Shown piece after piece: positions 4,240-32,240 of a stretch of 38,746 nucleotides of DNA. Under the pieces are notes generated by a model. That model saw only the letters and a program-made list of their open reading frames with translations, searched no databases and was not told the origin of the DNA. A program made the position numbers and the translations under genes. This DNA comes from a virus. The stretch lies in the IMG/VR virus record IMGVR_UViG_3300047310_000307, positions 1 to 38,746 of that record, one strand, 5' to 3'. Position 1 is the stretch's first letter; each line of letters opens with the position of its first letter.

Positions 4240-4625
4240 CGGGCTTCTCCAGTGCGGCGTGCGCGAAAGGCACGCATCCGCGCGTTGTAGCAGGTTCGAC
4301 ACTGGCGGTGCTCGCGTCCGTCGCGAGCCGACCAGCGGCTGATGTTGTCGCCGTCGATGGCGTGGCCGTTCTTGCAGACGCTCCGGTGCGTGCGCTTGTG
4401 CGTGGAGTAGGTCAGCGCCTCAAGGTGCGCGGGGTTCACGCACGCCTTCACCCCGCAACGGTGATGCACTTCGTGCCCCGCCGGGATCGGCCCGACGTGC
4501 TGCTCGTAGACGAGGCGATGCGCGTAGACCTGCGGGCGCTCGCCTGCGAGATACCGGGCAGGGTCATACGCCTGCCCGTAGCCGTTGGGCATCACGTAGC
4601 CGGGCCAGAGCACACAGTCGGTCAC
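4236..4625 (-). CDS. HNH endonuclease (early-operon copy 1)
   Basis: 129 residues with an HNH fold: VGPIPAGHEVHHRCGVKACVNPAHLEALT contributes the His-His, Cys-X4-Cys-type and Asn-Pro-X-His elements, and a second Cys pair lies near the C-terminus (CKNGH, CRTCYNARMRAFR). The first 40 residues (WPGYVMPNGYGQ) fit phage free-standing HNH nucleases. It begins with GTG at 4625, overlapping the upstream stop, and ends by overlapping the ERF start as ATGA, so it is well built into the operon. A selfish homing-type gene or a phage DNA-processing nuclease are both possible. It resembles the HNH gene at 5178-5462. Confidence 0.85.
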   Translation of the reverse strand: MTDCVLWPGYVMPNGYGQAYDPARYLAGERPQVYAHRLVYEQHVGPIPAGHEVHHRCGVKACVNPAHLEALTYSTHKRTHRSVCKNGHAIDGDNISRWSARDGREHRQCRTCYNARMRAFRARRTGEAR

Positions 4626-5639: not shown

Positions 5640-5668
5640 AGTGTATGTGTAGAAAGGAGTAGTGTCAA
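5640..5668 (-). promoter_or_regulatory. Leftward early promoter, sigma70-type
   Basis: On the minus strand, TTGACA (5668-5663) and TACACT (5645-5640) are 17 bases apart. The -35 box is perfect and is preceded by C, as in the other promoters of the window. The first ATG follows the -10 box by seven bases. Confidence 0.8.
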
Positions 5669-5714: not shown

Positions 5715-5760
5715 GTGCAAGTCGTCGTTGATTTTGACGCCGACGCACTGGAGAACGACG

Positions 5761-5982: not shown

Positions 5983-6014
5983 CTCGTCCACCTCACTCAC
6001 TGGAGATCAGACCA

Positions 6015-7025
6015 ATGGCACACAACATCGCGTCCATCAACGGCCAGTCGGCCATCGCTTACATCGGCAGCACCCCGTGGCACGGCCTCGGCACCCGCCT
6101 ACGCGGCGACGTGCGCTACTCCATCGAGGCCAGCCTCGCGGCGGCGCACCTCGACTGGACCGTCGGCCTTGAGCCGCTCTACGACAACAGCGGCTCGCTC
6201 ATCCCGCTCGGCCAGTTGGCCCGGCGCTCGTCCGACGGCGCGCAGTTGGCCGTCGTCGGCCCCTCCTATGTCGCGGTGCAGAACGCCGCCGCGATCTCCA
6301 TCCTCCAGACCGCCATCGAGGAACTGGGCGCGACCATCGAGGTCATCGGCGCGCTGGGCCGGGGCGAGCGCCTCTGGGCGCTGGTGCGCCTCGCGGGCGC
6401 GACGGTCGATGTCACCGGCAACGGCGACAGCGTGCAGGGCTACGCGCTCCTGACGTGGTCGCACGACGGCAGCGGCGCGGTGAAGGTCATCGCGACCGGC
6501 ACGCGCGCGGTCTGCCAGAACACTATCGCGCTGGCCCGCAGCGAGGCCCACGCGAACGTCGCGAGCATCCGCCACACCGCGTCGGCGGGCGACCGCGTCG
6601 AGCAGGCGCGCAAGCTCTTCACGGGCCTGACCAAGGCGCTCATCGCCACGGGCGAGAGCTTCAAGCAGTTGGCCGCGCGCGAACTGAACCAGCACGAAGT
6701 CATCGCCTACATCGAGTCGGTGTTCCCCGGCGAGATCGTCGGCGGCAAGCTGGTCGTCAACGACACGCTGGCGAAGCGCCGGGCGACGGTGTCGCGGCTG
6801 GTGTTCGAAGGCGTCGGCGTCGAGCAGGCGACGGCCCTGACCGGCGGCGCGCCGAACGCGTGGTCGGTCTACAACGCGGTCACCGAGTACTTCGACCACG
6901 TCCGTCCTGCCGAGGCGTCGAGCGTCTCGGGTCGCCAGCGCGCGAACGAGTCGGCCCTCTTCGGCGCGAACGCCGAGGTCAAGGTGCTCGCCCTCACGCA
7001 GGCCCGCCAGTTGGTGGCGGCGTAG
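6015..7025 (+). CDS. DUF932 phage/plasmid-like protein
   Basis: 336 residues. It opens with a signature of this family, TPWHGLGTRL (about 20-29), then continues with QLAVVGPSYVAVQN, RLWALVRLAG, and GTRAVCQNTIALA around a conserved Cys-Gln-Asn. The family (DUF932, phage/plasmid-related protein) is common in phages and mobile elements near replication and recombination genes; its biochemical role is not established. The length fits the family. Leader CACTGGAGA at 5998-6006 fixes the start. A strong terminator-like hairpin follows the stop. Confidence 0.85.
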   Translation: MAHNIASINGQSAIAYIGSTPWHGLGTRLRGDVRYSIEASLAAAHLDWTVGLEPLYDNSGSLIPLGQLARRSSDGAQLAVVGPSYVAVQNAAAISILQTAIEELGATIEVIGALGRGERLWALVRLAGATVDVTGNGDSVQGYALLTWSHDGSGAVKVIATGTRAVCQNTIALARSEAHANVASIRHTASAGDRVEQARKLFTGLTKALIATGESFKQLAARELNQHEVIAYIESVFPGEIVGGKLVVNDTLAKRRATVSRLVFEGVGVEQATALTGGAPNAWSVYNAVTEYFDHVRPAEASSVSGRQRANESALFGANAEVKVLALTQARQLVAA

Positions 7026-7059: not shown

Positions 7060-7078
7060 CCCTCACTGGAGAACGACC

Positions 7079-8582: not shown

Positions 8583-8599
8583 TCACTGGAGACAGACCG

Positions 8600-9162: not shown

Positions 9163-9186
9163 TCCTCGACCACTGGAGACACGACC

Positions 9187-9537
9187 ATGAACAAGACCGC
9201 TGAAGTCGCCGCCCTCGACGCGTTCATCGCGAAGCTCGGCCCGCACACCTACCTCGGCCCGTGGCTGGCCGACCAGCGCGACGCCATCGTCCGCGACATC
9301 GCGACGGACATCCTGCCGTCGCCGATGCTGCCGAGCACGGCCCACCGGGTGGCCGCGCAGATCGTCGCCGACGCGAAGGAGGCCGCGACCGTCATCACCG
9401 ACCTCGCCCGCGACAAGGCCGACGTGCTGCGCCGCGAGACGGAGAAGGCGTGCGGCGAGCGCCGGGGCTACGTCGCCGCCATCATCGAACGCGCGGCCTC
9501 CGAGGCCGTCGGCGTCCTGAGCGGGAGGCGGGCGTAG
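9187..9537 (+). CDS. Helical unknown early protein
   Basis: 116 residues, nearly all predicted helix (AAQIVADAKEAATVITDLAR, then DKADVLRRETEKACGERRGY). The start at 9187 follows CACTGGAGA (9171-9179). It is the last gene before the promoter at 9567. No motif points to a function. Confidence 0.7.
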   Translation: MNKTAEVAALDAFIAKLGPHTYLGPWLADQRDAIVRDIATDILPSPMLPSTAHRVAAQIVADAKEAATVITDLARDKADVLRRETEKACGERRGYVAAIIERAASEAVGVLSGRRA

Positions 9538-9625: not shown

Positions 9626-9643
9626 GAGACACTGGAGACGACA

Positions 9644-10390
9644 ATGACCATCACTGCGAAGTTCGCCGGAACCTGCACCATCTGCAAGTCAGCCATCACC
9701 CCCGGCCAGAGCATCATCTGGGCACGCGGCGCTGGCTCCAAGCACGCCAACCTGAGCGACTGCCAAGCCGCGCAGGCGCTCGCCGCCGTCGCGGTGGCAG
9801 CGTCTGCGGTCGCCCCGGCCCCGCGCCCGGTCGTCAGCCTGAGCGGGCTGGTGGCCTTCCTGAAGGCGGCGCGTGAGCGCGGCCTCAAGTTCCCCAAGAC
9901 GCGCTTCGCGGCCCCCGGCAACGGCGAGCTTCTGCTCTCGCTGGCGGGCGACGACTCGCGCAACCCCGGCAGCGTCTACGTCAAGCTCAACGGCGAGTAC
10001 GTGGGCAAGGTGACGCGCGAGGGCGCGGCCTACGGCGTGGACGCCCTGCTGCCGACGCTGCAGGCCATCGAGGCCGACCCGGCGGCGGCTGGTGCCGCCT
10101 ACGGCGCGCTGACGGGCCGCTGCTCGTTCTGCGGCCTCGGCCTGACGGACGAGGGCAGCGTCGAGGTCGGCTACGGCCCGGTGTGCGCGAGCCGCTACGG
10201 CCTGCCGCACAAGGCCAAGGGCAGCGCCAAGGTCGTGCCGGTGGTCAACGTGGCCCCGGTCGCCGACAAGGTCGCCGCGTGGGTGAAGGTCGCCGAGGCC
10301 GCGTATGACGCGCAGCCCGGCTTCACGCCGCGCGAGGCGCGCCACGACGGGCGCGTGGTGGTGGAGCTTGCCGCCGACGACCGACTGTAG
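9644..10390 (+). CDS. Zinc-ribbon protein with DUF6011-like domain
   Basis: 248 residues. The N-terminus has CTICKSAITPGQSIIWARGA, a Cys-X2-Cys half of a zinc site. The middle has CSFCGLGLTDEGSVEVGYGP followed by VCASRYG (about 157-183), the Cys-X2-Cys, Leu-Thr-Asp, Gly-Tyr-Gly-Pro-X-Cys layout of DUF6011, a small zinc domain found in phage and mobile-element proteins. Between them is a domain with GSVYVKLNGEYVGKVTREG. The start at 9644 follows CACTGGAGA (9630-9638). Nucleic-acid or protein binding is likely from the zinc folds; no enzyme motif seen. Confidence 0.75.
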   Translation: MTITAKFAGTCTICKSAITPGQSIIWARGAGSKHANLSDCQAAQALAAVAVAASAVAPAPRPVVSLSGLVAFLKAARERGLKFPKTRFAAPGNGELLLSLAGDDSRNPGSVYVKLNGEYVGKVTREGAAYGVDALLPTLQAIEADPAAAGAAYGALTGRCSFCGLGLTDEGSVEVGYGPVCASRYGLPHKAKGSAKVVPVVNVAPVADKVAAWVKVAEAAYDAQPGFTPREARHDGRVVVELAADDRL

Positions 10391-10428: not shown

Positions 10429-10444
10429 CACTGGAGAGACGACG

Positions 10445-10918: not shown

Positions 10919-10934
10919 CACTGGAGACACGACC

Positions 10935-11168
10935 ATGCCGAAGAAGACGATCACGGGACGCACGCAGGAGCAGCTGGAGCGGATCGCGATCATCCGCGCG
11001 ATCAACGACGAGGTCAGCGCCGGGCTGGAGATTCGCCACTACCGCTGGGAACGCGCCGTCGCCCACGCGCCCACGCAGGCGCTGCAGGCGGCGCTCACGC
11101 ATCTGCAGGAGGCGCGGAAGATCATCCAGACCGTCAGCGGCGGCGCGACGGAAGGCGGTGGCAAGTGA
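10935..11168 (+). CDS. Small helical unknown protein
   Basis: 77 residues, helical (TQEQLERIAIIRAINDEVSA, then ALQAALTHLQEARKIIQTVS) with a Gly-rich end. Leader CACTGGAGA (10919-10927) fixes the start at 10935. The stop overlaps a GTG that opens a tiny membrane-type frame. Confidence 0.65.
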   Translation: MPKKTITGRTQEQLERIAIIRAINDEVSAGLEIRHYRWERAVAHAPTQALQAALTHLQEARKIIQTVSGGATEGGGK

Positions 11169-29317: not shown

Positions 29318-29683
29318 ATGCCGACGTGCTCTCGCTGTGGTGGCCTACGCGACCGGCCCGGCTGGTGCTCGACCTGCACTCGCGCTTATCTGCGCGACTA
29401 CCGGAAGAGCTACGTGCGCGTGAAGCCGCGCCTCGTCCGTCCGTGGACCGACTGGCCCGCCCGCCAGCGTGCAGCGCACCATCGCAACAAGCGCACGCGC
29501 TATCGACAGCGGCTGGGTCGGTTACCCGCAGGCCCGTGCGAGGGCTGCGGTGCGACGGAGAACGTGCAGAACCATCACCACTGGGGCGACAACCACGACT
29601 GGTTCGTGCGCCTCTGTAAGGGGTGTCACGCGGCCCTGCACGTCACCTTGTTGCTAACCCCTTACGCTCCAGCAGTTCCGTAG
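29318..29683 (+). CDS. HNH endonuclease inserted opposite the structural operon
   Basis: 121 residues. Zinc-binding Cys pairs at the N-terminus (CSRCGG, WCSTC) are followed by CEGCGATENVQNHHHWGDNH and DWFVRLCKGCHAALHV, a clear HNH core. It is the only rightward gene in the structural region, between the capsid gene and the next structural gene, and its last 22 bases overlap the capsid 3' end. The start at 29318 gives the first zinc pair; a GTG at 29297 is possible. This is the usual setting of a free-standing homing-type nuclease. Its promoter is unclear. Confidence 0.8.
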   Translation: MPTCSRCGGLRDRPGWCSTCTRAYLRDYRKSYVRVKPRLVRPWTDWPARQRAAHHRNKRTRYRQRLGRLPAGPCEGCGATENVQNHHHWGDNHDWFVRLCKGCHAALHVTLLLTPYAPAVP

Positions 29684-30579
29684 ATATTCTGCCAGAGAAA
29701 AGCGTCCCACGCCTGCCGGAAGCGGACCTTGTAGATCCGGTTGCCGGTGCGGGCGTCCTGCATCGCGGGCGCGGCGGTGATGCCGACGCGGTCCACGCAG
29801 ACGAGGCCGTGCGTTTCCTTCGCGTCGGCGACGAGGTACCACGCGTCGGCGTCGGTGAGGTAGGGGTTGGTGAGGATGCGGATGTTCCGACGCCGCTTGA
29901 TCGGGTTCACGTCGTTGTCCACCGAGCCGGGCAGCAGCGTGCTGTTCAGCAGGCGGTCAGCGAGCATTTCCAACTGGGGCGGCACGTAGAGGATCCAGTT
30001 CATCACGGGCGCGACCAACTGCCCGCTCTCCAGCTTCGTGTCCGTCTGCACGTCGATGATCGCCTGATTGAGCGAGTCGTAGCTCAGGTCGGCATCGGTC
30101 GCCGGGCGGTTGCGGGCCGTGCCGCCGCCCGCGAGCACATGGGCGGTATTGAACAGCGAGACGCCGTCGGGCGCAAGCTGCGTCGAGAAGCCGAGGTTGA
30201 ACGGGATCGCCGCGTACTTCTCCTGCACGACGCGGGCGCTGAACGCCAGCCACGACGCCTGCCGCTGCAGCACGTCGAACTGGTCGTCTTCCATCGCCGT
30301 CTCGGTGACCTCAAAGCCGAGGCCGAACTCGACCGGGGTCACGTCCTTGCTGTAGCCGGGACGGATCAGGTCGAAGGCGTAGACGCTGCCCTCGGGCTTC
30401 TCGGGCACGTCGCCGAACGGCGTGACCGTCTGGAACCGCTCAAACTTGCGCGAGGAACTCTTGCGCGAGTAGATGTCGGTCCAGATCGGGGGAAGCTCCT
30501 TCAACTGCTTGCCGAGCAGCGCGTACACCGTCTTATCGACGTTGTCGTACAGCGCCGCAAAAGTTCCACGTACTTGCAT
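29662..30579 (-). CDS. Major capsid protein, Mu gpT-like / HK97 fold
   Basis: 305 residues. The region FERFQTVTPFGDVPEKPEGS followed by VYAFDLIRPGYSK, and FGLGFEVTETAMEDDQFDVL, matches the Mu-like major head subunit (gpT) pattern, a variant of the HK97 capsid fold. The C-terminus (RFRQAWDAFLWQNIYGTAGA) fits the family. AGGAG precedes ATG at 30579. Location between a decoration-like gene and the connectors, downstream of scaffold and portal, is canonical for the main capsid gene. The exact family should be confirmed by profile search. Confidence 0.85.
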   Translation of the reverse strand: MQVRGTFAALYDNVDKTVYALLGKQLKELPPIWTDIYSRKSSSRKFERFQTVTPFGDVPEKPEGSVYAFDLIRPGYSKDVTPVEFGLGFEVTETAMEDDQFDVLQRQASWLAFSARVVQEKYAAIPFNLGFSTQLAPDGVSLFNTAHVLAGGGTARNRPATDADLSYDSLNQAIIDVQTDTKLESGQLVAPVMNWILYVPPQLEMLADRLLNSTLLPGSVDNDVNPIKRRRNIRILTNPYLTDADAWYLVADAKETHGLVCVDRVGITAAPAMQDARTGNRIYKVRFRQAWDAFLWQNIYGTAGA

Positions 30580-30610
30580 GGCTGGCTCCTAGTGGGACTG
30601 ATGAGCGCGA

Positions 30611-31081
30611 CTACGACTGCTGCGGCGTCCGCACCGCGTTGAGGAACTTGAACGCGACCCGCCCGTTCACGTCGCCGACCGCGTCGATCAGTTCGGTGAT
30701 GACGACGGCCTTGTTGGTCGTGTCCGCGATGTTCACGCGGAAGATGTCCTTGCCGCCCACGGCGTCGAGGACGAGGCCGAACTGCCCGCCGACCAGCGCC
30801 AGCGCGAGCACGCCCGTGTCCTGCACGCGGCCTTGGAACTCGCTGTTCTCGTCGGCGACGAGCACGCCGATCTTCCGGTCGGTGACGCCGCTGGCCGCTT
30901 CGGCGGCGATGCCGAGGATGGTCGCGACCGCAGCGGTTGCGCCCTTCACGGCCTTCCCGGCGGTGAGGATCACCACCGCGCCCGTCTTGAAGGTCTGCGC
31001 CGCCCCTTCAAGGAAATACATGATCCGCGTCTGACGCAGTTCGCGGAAGCCGTCACCGGCTCCGACCGTGAAAGTCACCAT
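30611..31081 (-). CDS. Capsid decoration-like protein
   Basis: 156 residues, beta-rich, starting MVTFTVGAGDGFRELRQTRI and continuing QTFKTGAVVILTAGKAVKGA and VTDRKIGVLVADENSEFQGR, the alternating Gly/Val pattern of small head-decoration or head-fibre-base proteins that precede capsid genes. GAGGG upstream supports ATG at 31081, so the longer frame is rejected. It is the first gene after the structured leader and its promoter, so it is probably made together with the capsid protein. Confidence 0.65.
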   Translation of the reverse strand: MVTFTVGAGDGFRELRQTRIMYFLEGAAQTFKTGAVVILTAGKAVKGATAAVATILGIAAEAASGVTDRKIGVLVADENSEFQGRVQDTGVLALALVGGQFGLVLDAVGGKDIFRVNIADTTNKAVVITELIDAVGDVNGRVAFKFLNAVRTPQQS

Positions 31082-31365
31082 GAGAAAACCCTCGCCCTGA
31101 GAGTCCGCGCGGGGAGCGCAGACGAATGTCTTCGGGGTTGCGGGTTGGCCTCGACGCAGTCGCCAGCGGCCAACCGGGCCAGCGAGCAGCAGCACGCACT
31201 GCAGGTCACACCGTGTGCCCCGACGCGCGTGACATCGGGGAGGCGAAAACTAGCAGGGGCGAGAGTGCCCTGCGCGGTCGGAACCCACTGGAGTAAGTCC
31301 CTTGGCGCGAGAGCCGTCTGCCCCTGCCGGTCGGCGATGAGGTTACGGCTGCGTGGCCTCGACTG
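31082..31365 (-). ncRNA. Structured non-coding leader, candidate RNA element
   Basis: The longest gene-free stretch in the window (284 bases). It holds a nested hairpin at 31143-31175 (arms GGTTGGCC and GGCCAACC, with CGAC and GTCG inside), a hairpin at 31218-31240 (CCCCGA and TCGGGG), a short palindrome at 31207-31217, and long-range arms GCAGGGGC (31253-31260) and GCCCCTGC (31320-31327). From the promoter at 31340-31369 most of it would form a 5' leader of about 250 bases before the decoration and capsid genes. No convincing gene was found in it, and no tRNA. Function unknown; regulation, a small RNA or a DNA signal are all possible. Confidence 0.5.
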
Positions 31366-31369
31366 TCAA
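31340..31369 (-). promoter_or_regulatory. Leftward promoter before the capsid genes
   Basis: Minus-strand TTGACA (31369-31364) preceded by C, as in the early promoters, with TAACCT (31345-31340) 18 bases downstream. The -10 match is weak (three of six). The -35 overlaps the stop of the small membrane protein gene. Confidence 0.5.
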
Positions 31370-31563
31370 GGCCGGAGGTGTCCGTAGGTCGGGAGCGGCG
31401 CGCCGAGATACCCGAGGATGATCAGCACGCCGAGGATCACGACGACGACCCAGATCACAGTGCGGAGCGGGTCGGCGATGCCGAAGGCGGTCAGCAGCGC
31501 CTGCGAGGCCCAGACGAGCAGGCAGAACAGCAGCAGCGCAACGAGCAGGCCGATGATCGACAT
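31366..31563 (-). CDS. Small two-span membrane protein, holin-like candidate
   Basis: 65 residues with two hydrophobic segments: IIGLLVALLLFCLLVWASQA (about 3-22) and TVIWVVVVILGVLIILGYLG (about 35-54), separated by a short linker. The size and two spans fit small holins, but no lysis enzyme is next to it and it lies among head genes, so it may instead be a head or membrane accessory protein. AGGAG precedes ATG at 31563. Confidence 0.6.
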   Translation of the reverse strand: MSIIGLLVALLLFCLLVWASQALLTAFGIADPLRTVIWVVVVILGVLIILGYLGAPLPTYGHLRP

Positions 31564-31571
31564 GGCGTCTC

Positions 31572-32240
31572 CTAGGGCTGGGGGTCTTCGTTTGCCGCCG
31601 CATCGAGCGGGTTCGCGTCGGGCGAGACGAGCCGGTCGCGCCCGACCTTGATCGAGCCGACCACCTCTCCGACGGCCTCGGTGTCCTCCGGGGACAACCC
31701 CCGCGCGACAGCGGCGGCGATGGCCGACTCTTTCAACGCACGGCCCGTCATCGTCCGCGCGTGCCGCTCATGCTGCTTCGCCTTGATGCGCCGGTAGAGC
31801 GCCATCGGCATCTTCATCAGGGCTTCCTTGCCGCCCTCGCTCCGGCGCACGAACTCGTCGGTCTTCGACGGGTTGCTGATCACGTCGGCGGTCTGCAGTT
31901 CGTCCCAGCGCACGGGCGCGTAGCCGAGCGACTGCTGCGCGATGTGGTGCCGGTTCGGCATCGCGAGGTTGATCCAGCGCAGGTACCACTTGCGCCGGAT
32001 GCCACGCGGGTCTTCGTGCTCCTCCGGCTCGTCCTTCAGGCGGATCGGCAGCGCGTTGGGCAGGTTCGGATCCGTCAACCGCCGCCCGGCGACCTCGATG
32101 TTCGCGAAGTCCTTGAACGCCTCGACCAGATCGTCGTCGGCGACCTTGCGCTGCGACGCGACGGTTTCCTTCAGGCGCTGCTTCACGCCGCGCTGCAGCT
32201 TCTCGGTTTCGATCTCCAGCCGCGACTTCACTCGGGACAT
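31572..32240 (-). CDS. Unknown head-region protein
   Basis: 222 residues, mostly helical and charged. The start (SRLEIETEKLQRGVKQRLKE) is coiled-coil-like. The middle has KWYLRWINLAMPNRHHIAQQ and LGYAPVRWDELQ, and the following part is helical and basic (MALYRRIKAKQHERHARTMT). GGAG precedes ATG at 32240. It follows the scaffold-like gene closely. It may be a head assembly or DNA-binding protein; no family is recognised. Confidence 0.6.
   Translation of the reverse strand: MSRVKSRLEIETEKLQRGVKQRLKETVASQRKVADDDLVEAFKDFANIEVAGRRLTDPNLPNALPIRLKDEPEEHEDPRGIRRKWYLRWINLAMPNRHHIAQQSLGYAPVRWDELQTADVISNPSKTDEFVRRSEGGKEALMKMPMALYRRIKAKQHERHARTMTGRALKESAIAAAVARGLSPEDTEAVGEVVGSIKVGRDRLVSPDANPLDAAANEDPQP

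Follow-up and report, generated by a model that had tools for sequence, protein, structure and literature searches.

In Cluster K mycobacteriophages, Pope et al. described the Start Associated Sequences (SAS), a conserved Shine-Dalgarno box that is reiterated before non-structural genes and of which a single copy, in opposite orientation, is not followed by a gene; the function of the SAS was left open, with an RNA or a protein considered as partner (PMC3203893). We found no proposal of an antisense partner for the SAS in the open-licence literature. Phages P1 and P7 have a structured antisense RNA, c4, whose loops show complementarity to a ribosome-binding region (PMC12197685), and in mycobacteria the C-rich loops of the 6C (B11) sRNA pair with ribosome-binding sites and repress many mRNAs (PMC10470900). 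In phage T4, RegA competes with the ribosome and, at a late stage, shuts off the translation of about 30 early mRNAs (PMC3014915).

Here we analysed a 38.7-kb phage contig (IMG/VR record IMGVR_UViG_3300047310_000307, all 38,746 nucleotides, hereafter the window), the structural genes of which are encoded on the minus strand. We consider it likely that the capsid-gene leader is a trans-acting antisense RNA, which blocks translation of the early genes as soon as transcription of the capsid operon sets in.

Structure and conservation of the capsid-gene leader

An earlier, sequence-only reading had pointed to 284 non-coding bases ahead of the genes for the decoration and capsid proteins, and to a CTTGACA promoter at their upstream end and inverted repeats at 31143-31175, 31218-31240 and 31253-31327. 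The region was confirmed as a 284-nt non-coding leader on the minus strand (31365-31082), positioned between the stop codon of its upstream neighbour, a 65-aa membrane-protein-like ORF (31563-31366, minus strand), and the ATG (31081) of the decoration-like gene (30611-31081, minus strand, 156 aa), which owes its name to that reading and gave no family match. The major capsid gene (PF25209 Phage_capsid_4, 305 aa) is located at 29662-30579 on the minus strand. The leader promoter, TTGACA-N18-TAACCT on the minus strand, consists of a -35 element (31369-31364) that shares bases with the 65-aa ORF's stop codon and is invariant in seven relatives, and of a -10 element (31345-31340) that reads TANNNT in the relatives at a spacing of 17-18 nt. 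Throughout the window, TTGACA-N16-18-TANNNT occurs at two sites only, with none expected from shuffles. The second of these promoters, TTGACA-N17-TACACT (5640-5668, minus strand), is located where the leftward and rightward early operons diverge. Since the leader promoter and this early promoter (5668-5640) belong to the same host-type class, late expression of the leader is assumed here.

All three inverted repeats exist on the minus strand, to which the following positions refer. The 5' stem-loop domain (31253-31327) has the outer stem GCAGGGGC/GCCCCUGC, with a perfect 8-bp pairing of 31253-31260 with 31320-31327, and the apical hairpin GGGACUUAC-UCCA-GUGGGUUCC (31280-31301), which covaries in alignment A3 and contains the anti-Shine-Dalgarno loop CUCCAGUG (31286-31293). 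Half of this loop sits in a weak U-G/A-U/C-G stem, which has to open for pairing. On the 3' side of the domain follow a U-rich linker UAGUUUUCGCC (31252-31242), with a UUCG core kept in relatives and possibly a processing site or weak terminator, hairpin P2 CCCCGAUGUCACGCGCGUCGGGG (31218-31240, an inverted repeat), the 15-mer GCGUGCUGCUGCUCG (31183-31197), hairpin P3 GGUUGGCC...GGCCAACC (31143-31175), whose arms pair perfectly over 8 bp, and hairpin P4 (31103-31123), which precedes the decoration-gene ribosome-binding region GGGCGAGGG (31089-31097). The latter is not complementary to the loop, the longest match being 3 nt. The coding strand folds only moderately better than chance (z -2.44, 5 of 200 shuffles equally good), so that the case depends on the comparison with relatives; folding of the plus strand showed no excess over shuffles (z -0.70). 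An Rfam search at both thresholds gave no family at gathering score, c4 and 6C included, and the only match was PreQ1-III on the other strand, with 14.6 bits against a cut-off of 63.

A capsid-protein scan of viral contigs yielded 40 loci, which include a near group (the window with L006, L007, L009, L011, L013 and L029) and a distant group (L015-L018, L020 and L027). The leader is retained in every relative with a capsid protein at least 81% identical. In the near group its order is TTGACA, 17-18 nt, TANNNT, a hairpin with the 12-mer UUACUCCAGUGG, a second hairpin, the 15-mer and P3, mostly with a fourth hairpin ahead of the ribosome-binding site. The 12-mer at the apex of the 5' hairpin is invariant in this group, and its flanks vary between phages with the pairing maintained (12 alignment cells changed on both sides). 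Covariation in relatives had been proposed earlier as a check on the structure, and the loop-flanking stem does covary, with 94% of cells paired versus 72% in shuffles and a covariation of 0.607 versus 0.179 in shuffles (0 of 500 as high) and at most 0.200 in slid controls. P3 and the 15-mer (31143-31197) are likewise invariant across the near group. Members of the distant group lack the 65-aa ORF and retain the leader (239-284 nt) and P3, the latter with a compensatory U-A to C-G change. A conserved protein frame is absent, as most indels are not multiples of three; substitutions are spread over the three phases, with the exception of a mild third-position excess in L006 (12/11/22).

Beyond these groups, the P3 hairpin model gave nothing convincing in relatives with 42-61% identical capsid proteins, DNA comparison of positions 30900-31800 with GenBank phages returned no match, and a search for capsid relatives in the genome collection found two distant, uninformative matches. 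Locus L061, obtained from a pattern scan, was unrelated. The distant relative L028 carries a probable tRNA gene (CAT anticodon, assigned by eye) in the gap before its decoration-like gene, the position which the leader occupies in other relatives.

The early-gene box and the leader loop

The word CACTGGAG occurs 13 times in the window versus 1.4 times expected, and 11 of the 13 copies are positioned 6-9 nt before the start codon of a non-structural gene. On the plus strand the box lies at 5746-5753 (7 nt before ATG 5761), 5998-6005 (9 nt before the DUF932 gene at 6015), 7064-7071 (7 nt before GTG 7079), 8584-8591 (8 nt before ATG 8600), 9171-9178 (8 nt before ATG 9187), 9630-9637 (6 nt before the DUF6011 gene at 9644), 10429-10436 (8 nt before ATG 10445) and 10919-10926 (8 nt before ATG 10935). 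On the minus strand it lies at 4247-4254 (7 nt before the ERF ssDNA-annealing gene, ATG 4239), 2541-2548 (7 nt before the exonuclease-like gene phrog_10477, ATG 2533) and 82-89 (6 nt before ATG 75 of a gene that runs off the window). The genes with a box thus encode ERF, exonuclease-like, DUF932 and DUF6011 proteins as well as small proteins without a named function, and the decoration and capsid genes have no box. One of the two remaining copies lies within a gene and the other is at 31286-31293, where a plus-strand copy without a gene behind it had been noticed as an orphan; it has indeed no gene behind it, but instead of a separate oddity it is the complement of the recognition loop of the leader RNA, CUCCAGUG, which lies within the invariant 12-mer. 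The loop is thus exactly complementary to the box that precedes eleven genes, which points to antisense pairing. The upstream half of the box (CACU) is unable to pair with 16S rRNA, and rRNA pairing therefore does not explain its conservation.

In the distant-group genomes CACTGGAG is not in excess, and these genomes have start-associated words of their own, namely TCCGAGGA in G008, CGAGGGAG in G009 and G010, GAGGGAGA in G014 and CTGGAGGA in G011. Their leader hairpins carry UCCUCGGA (G008), CUCCCUCG (G009, G010), CUCCCUCA (G014) and UCCUCCAG (G011), the loops that match the boxes TCCGAGGA, CGAGGGAG and CTGGAGGA being TCCUCGGA, CUCCCUCG and UCCUCCAG, respectively. Boxes of orthologous genes change accordingly: the orthologues of the gene at 9187 have CACTGGAG in the near group, GTCCGAGGA in G008 and CCGAGGGAG in G010, and in the orthologues of the DUF6011 gene, the gene at 10935 and the ERF gene the box swaps with the loop likewise, with the capsid gene never preceded by a box. 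No decoration-gene ribosome-binding site matches the loop of its own phage over more than 5 nt.

An unbiased scan of the 1,300 nt upstream of the capsid gene for complements of start-associated words was performed on 12 genomes with a capsid protein at least 81% identical and the early region included. In 10 of the 12, the best complement fell on the loop of the leader hairpin, 703-763 nt ahead of the capsid gene, and the loop sequences found differ by genome (CTCCAGTG, TTCCTCGG, CTCCCTCG, TCCTCCAG). The same 1,300-nt scan gave no comparable loop-box pair in relatives with 42-61% identical capsid proteins. When all genome positions were ranked, with the trivial antisense positions opposite the boxes excluded, 0-5 of about 71,000-89,000 positions outscored the loop in 9 of the 12 genomes, placing it in the top six. 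Of the other three genomes, G008 has 22 higher-scoring positions, G006 is a 30-kb fragment with a weak signal, and in G014 most targets match over just 7 nt. A matrix of loops against genomes is nearly block-diagonal, each loop having 8-nt matches at 4-13 starts in its own near-group genomes and usually at 0-3 in foreign genomes, and its overlaps are understandable because G011 and the near group share ACTGGAGG and G009, G010 and G014 share GAGGGAG. This co-variation in the compared sequences strongly supports a predicted loop-box pairing. On the same grounds, the loop of L017 (IMGVR_UViG_3300037119_006656) predicts an early-gene box containing CTGAGGGAG.

Two further observations concern individual genomes. 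The leader of G003 (L009) has a second exact CUCCAGUG 629 nt upstream of the capsid gene, and degenerate versions (CUGCAGUG, CCCCAGCG) are found at the same spot in other relatives, which suggests a second antisense site that may have been gained or decayed. In G014 (L027), the early-gene targets (contig 35114-39119, minus strand) share a longer repeat, approximately GTCTAA...GAGGGAGACAGACACATG.

Proposed mechanism and alternatives

We propose that the leader's own promoter, which heads the decoration-capsid segment, would drive its transcription and that the 5' hairpin of the leader would display the short C-rich loop, which would base-pair in trans with the Shine-Dalgarno box CACUGGAG before about eleven non-structural genes, hiding the Shine-Dalgarno in competition with the anti-Shine-Dalgarno of 16S rRNA. 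Because this RNA leads the decoration-capsid segment, it should become more abundant as capsid transcription increases; translation of the early genes of the recombination and replication type would then be turned off and late genes, which have no box, would escape. The RNA is presumably made, and its pairing would repress rather than activate and would do so late, with either the intact 5' UTR or a processed fragment as the acting form.

The best of the alternatives, still an unlikely one, is that the hairpins act solely in cis, on how the decoration and capsid message is translated, stabilised or processed. The leader lies directly ahead of the decoration gene, and no targets are known for the conserved P3, P4 and 15-mer, the search for other targets of the rest of the leader having returned only AGCAGCAGC-type codon repeats, which were judged low complexity. 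However, the variable loop tracks the early-gene boxes and not the ribosome-binding sites of the decoration and capsid genes, and a purely cis role leaves the joint change unexplained; a dual role is possible. The sequence-only reading is therefore supported in its suggestion of a promoter-bearing regulatory leader or small RNA, but the evidence points to action in trans on the early genes, whose boxes the loop follows, instead of the expected control of the most highly made proteins in cis. Considerably less probable is a DNA site, CACTGGAG being bound by a phage protein and the leader copy representing another such site in reverse. A short motif reiterated with one reversed copy would fit this, and stoperator-type DNA sites exist in other phages, but the copies here are found at Shine-Dalgarno spacing and not at promoters, their core is always Shine-Dalgarno, and the leader copy lies within the loop of a covarying RNA hairpin.

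Base pairing is by itself directionless, and early mRNAs could also act as a sponge for the leader and so influence capsid expression, or early genes could be activated by the leader. We regard this as equally improbable as the DNA site, since it is the early-gene Shine-Dalgarno that is covered by the pairing and the loop is about 200 nt away from the decoration start. The antisense reading is also consistent with predicted pairing energies, which average -15 to -23 kcal/mol for the loop with its targets versus -8 to -12 kcal/mol for the loop with other Shine-Dalgarno-bearing starts and -6 to -11 kcal/mol for the targets with the 16S anti-Shine-Dalgarno. The ribosome-binding site of the capsid gene, CCCACTAGGAG (30579-30600, minus strand), resembles the early box with one inserted A, and in G000, G016 and G001 the loop is predicted to pair with it around a one-base bulge at -13.5 to -16.8 kcal/mol; this resemblance is not kept in all relatives. 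A chance match of a C-rich loop with G-rich Shine-Dalgarno sequences, any of which the CUCC core alone would fit, is very hard to credit, as the match continues for at least 4 nt past the core and several lineages show coordinated changes of loop and box, and the genome-wide ranking of the loop largely refutes it.

The Cluster K parallel and other known systems

In the Cluster K phage Anaya, the opposite-strand SAS forms the loop of the hairpin GCGCGG-CCUCCUAUCC-CCGCGC in the 385-nt gap between gp96 and gp97, and the single opposite-strand SAS of Adephagia is a hairpin loop too. According to RNA-seq, late transcription of Adephagia starts between genes 92 and 93, in the gap with the hairpin (PMC11373665). 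A 48-nt query containing the Anaya/Adephagia hairpin matches 155 mycobacteriophages. Kratio, Omnicron, OkiRoe, Thyatira, Rando14 and SoSeph have the same loop, but on another stem of 15-16 bp, which lies ahead of the terminase genes and shows a compensatory G-C to A-U change. The annotated gene 4 of Kratio (L213, 736-1095) spans the anti-SAS hairpin, after which the gene begins in relatives, and its annotated start is probably too early. In the parts examined, Pixie, Unicorn and ZoeJ have boxes and no exact anti-box in the late leader, and Boilgate, which has no SAS boxes, gave no anti-box. The reverse SAS of ZoeJ was rejected as an anti-box, being the ordinary box of a leftward gene. Microbacterium phage AnnaSerena (L211/L212) was not counted; its box GGGAAAGGACCCC is present at 10 sites and has its sole reverse match in a terminator-like stem. 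The parallel with Cluster K is strong for two subgroups only.

If the proposed mechanism is true, late transcription itself would silence the early regulon, which offers a testable mechanism for early-gene shutoff without a repressor protein. It may also answer what the SAS box does, a question that dates from 2011 and concerns phages amenable to growth and engineering in M. smegmatis. The mechanism would further provide a rule for finding phage RNA regulons from sequence alone, i.e. a box together with its complement in a hairpin loop of the late transcript. We give about an even chance to the broader idea that tailed phages repeatedly evolved an RNA-only early-to-late switch, in which a loop in the late or capsid leader is antisense to an early-gene box, and which would explain the SAS.

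Like the SAS phages, the window has a reiterated Shine-Dalgarno box at the starts of non-structural genes and an opposite-orientation copy in a hairpin loop of the late-transcript region, as in Anaya, Adephagia and the Kratio type, whereas the boxes differ (GGGATAGGAGCCC in Cluster K, CACTGGAG in the window) and the phages are unrelated. The likeness to c4 is a functional resemblance only, given by a loop complementary to a ribosome-binding region; c4 is directed at one antirepressor gene and serves immunity, whereas the window leader would address about eleven early genes sharing one box. With 6C it has in common a C-rich loop matching several Shine-Dalgarno sequences, which in the window is complementarity only. 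However, 6C is a chromosomal, stand-alone sRNA with generic C-tract loops, and the window element, which gave no 6C family match and is located in a phage operon leader instead of a stand-alone actinobacterial gene, is the leader of phage capsid genes with a phage-specific loop that changes with its target box. The proposed outcome, translational shutoff of early genes, would be analogous to that of RegA, but RegA is a protein, whereas the agent in the window would be the leader RNA of a late message. What is new in comparison with these systems is a single leader RNA that would address a whole early regulon via a reiterated box, with the joint evolution of the two visible.
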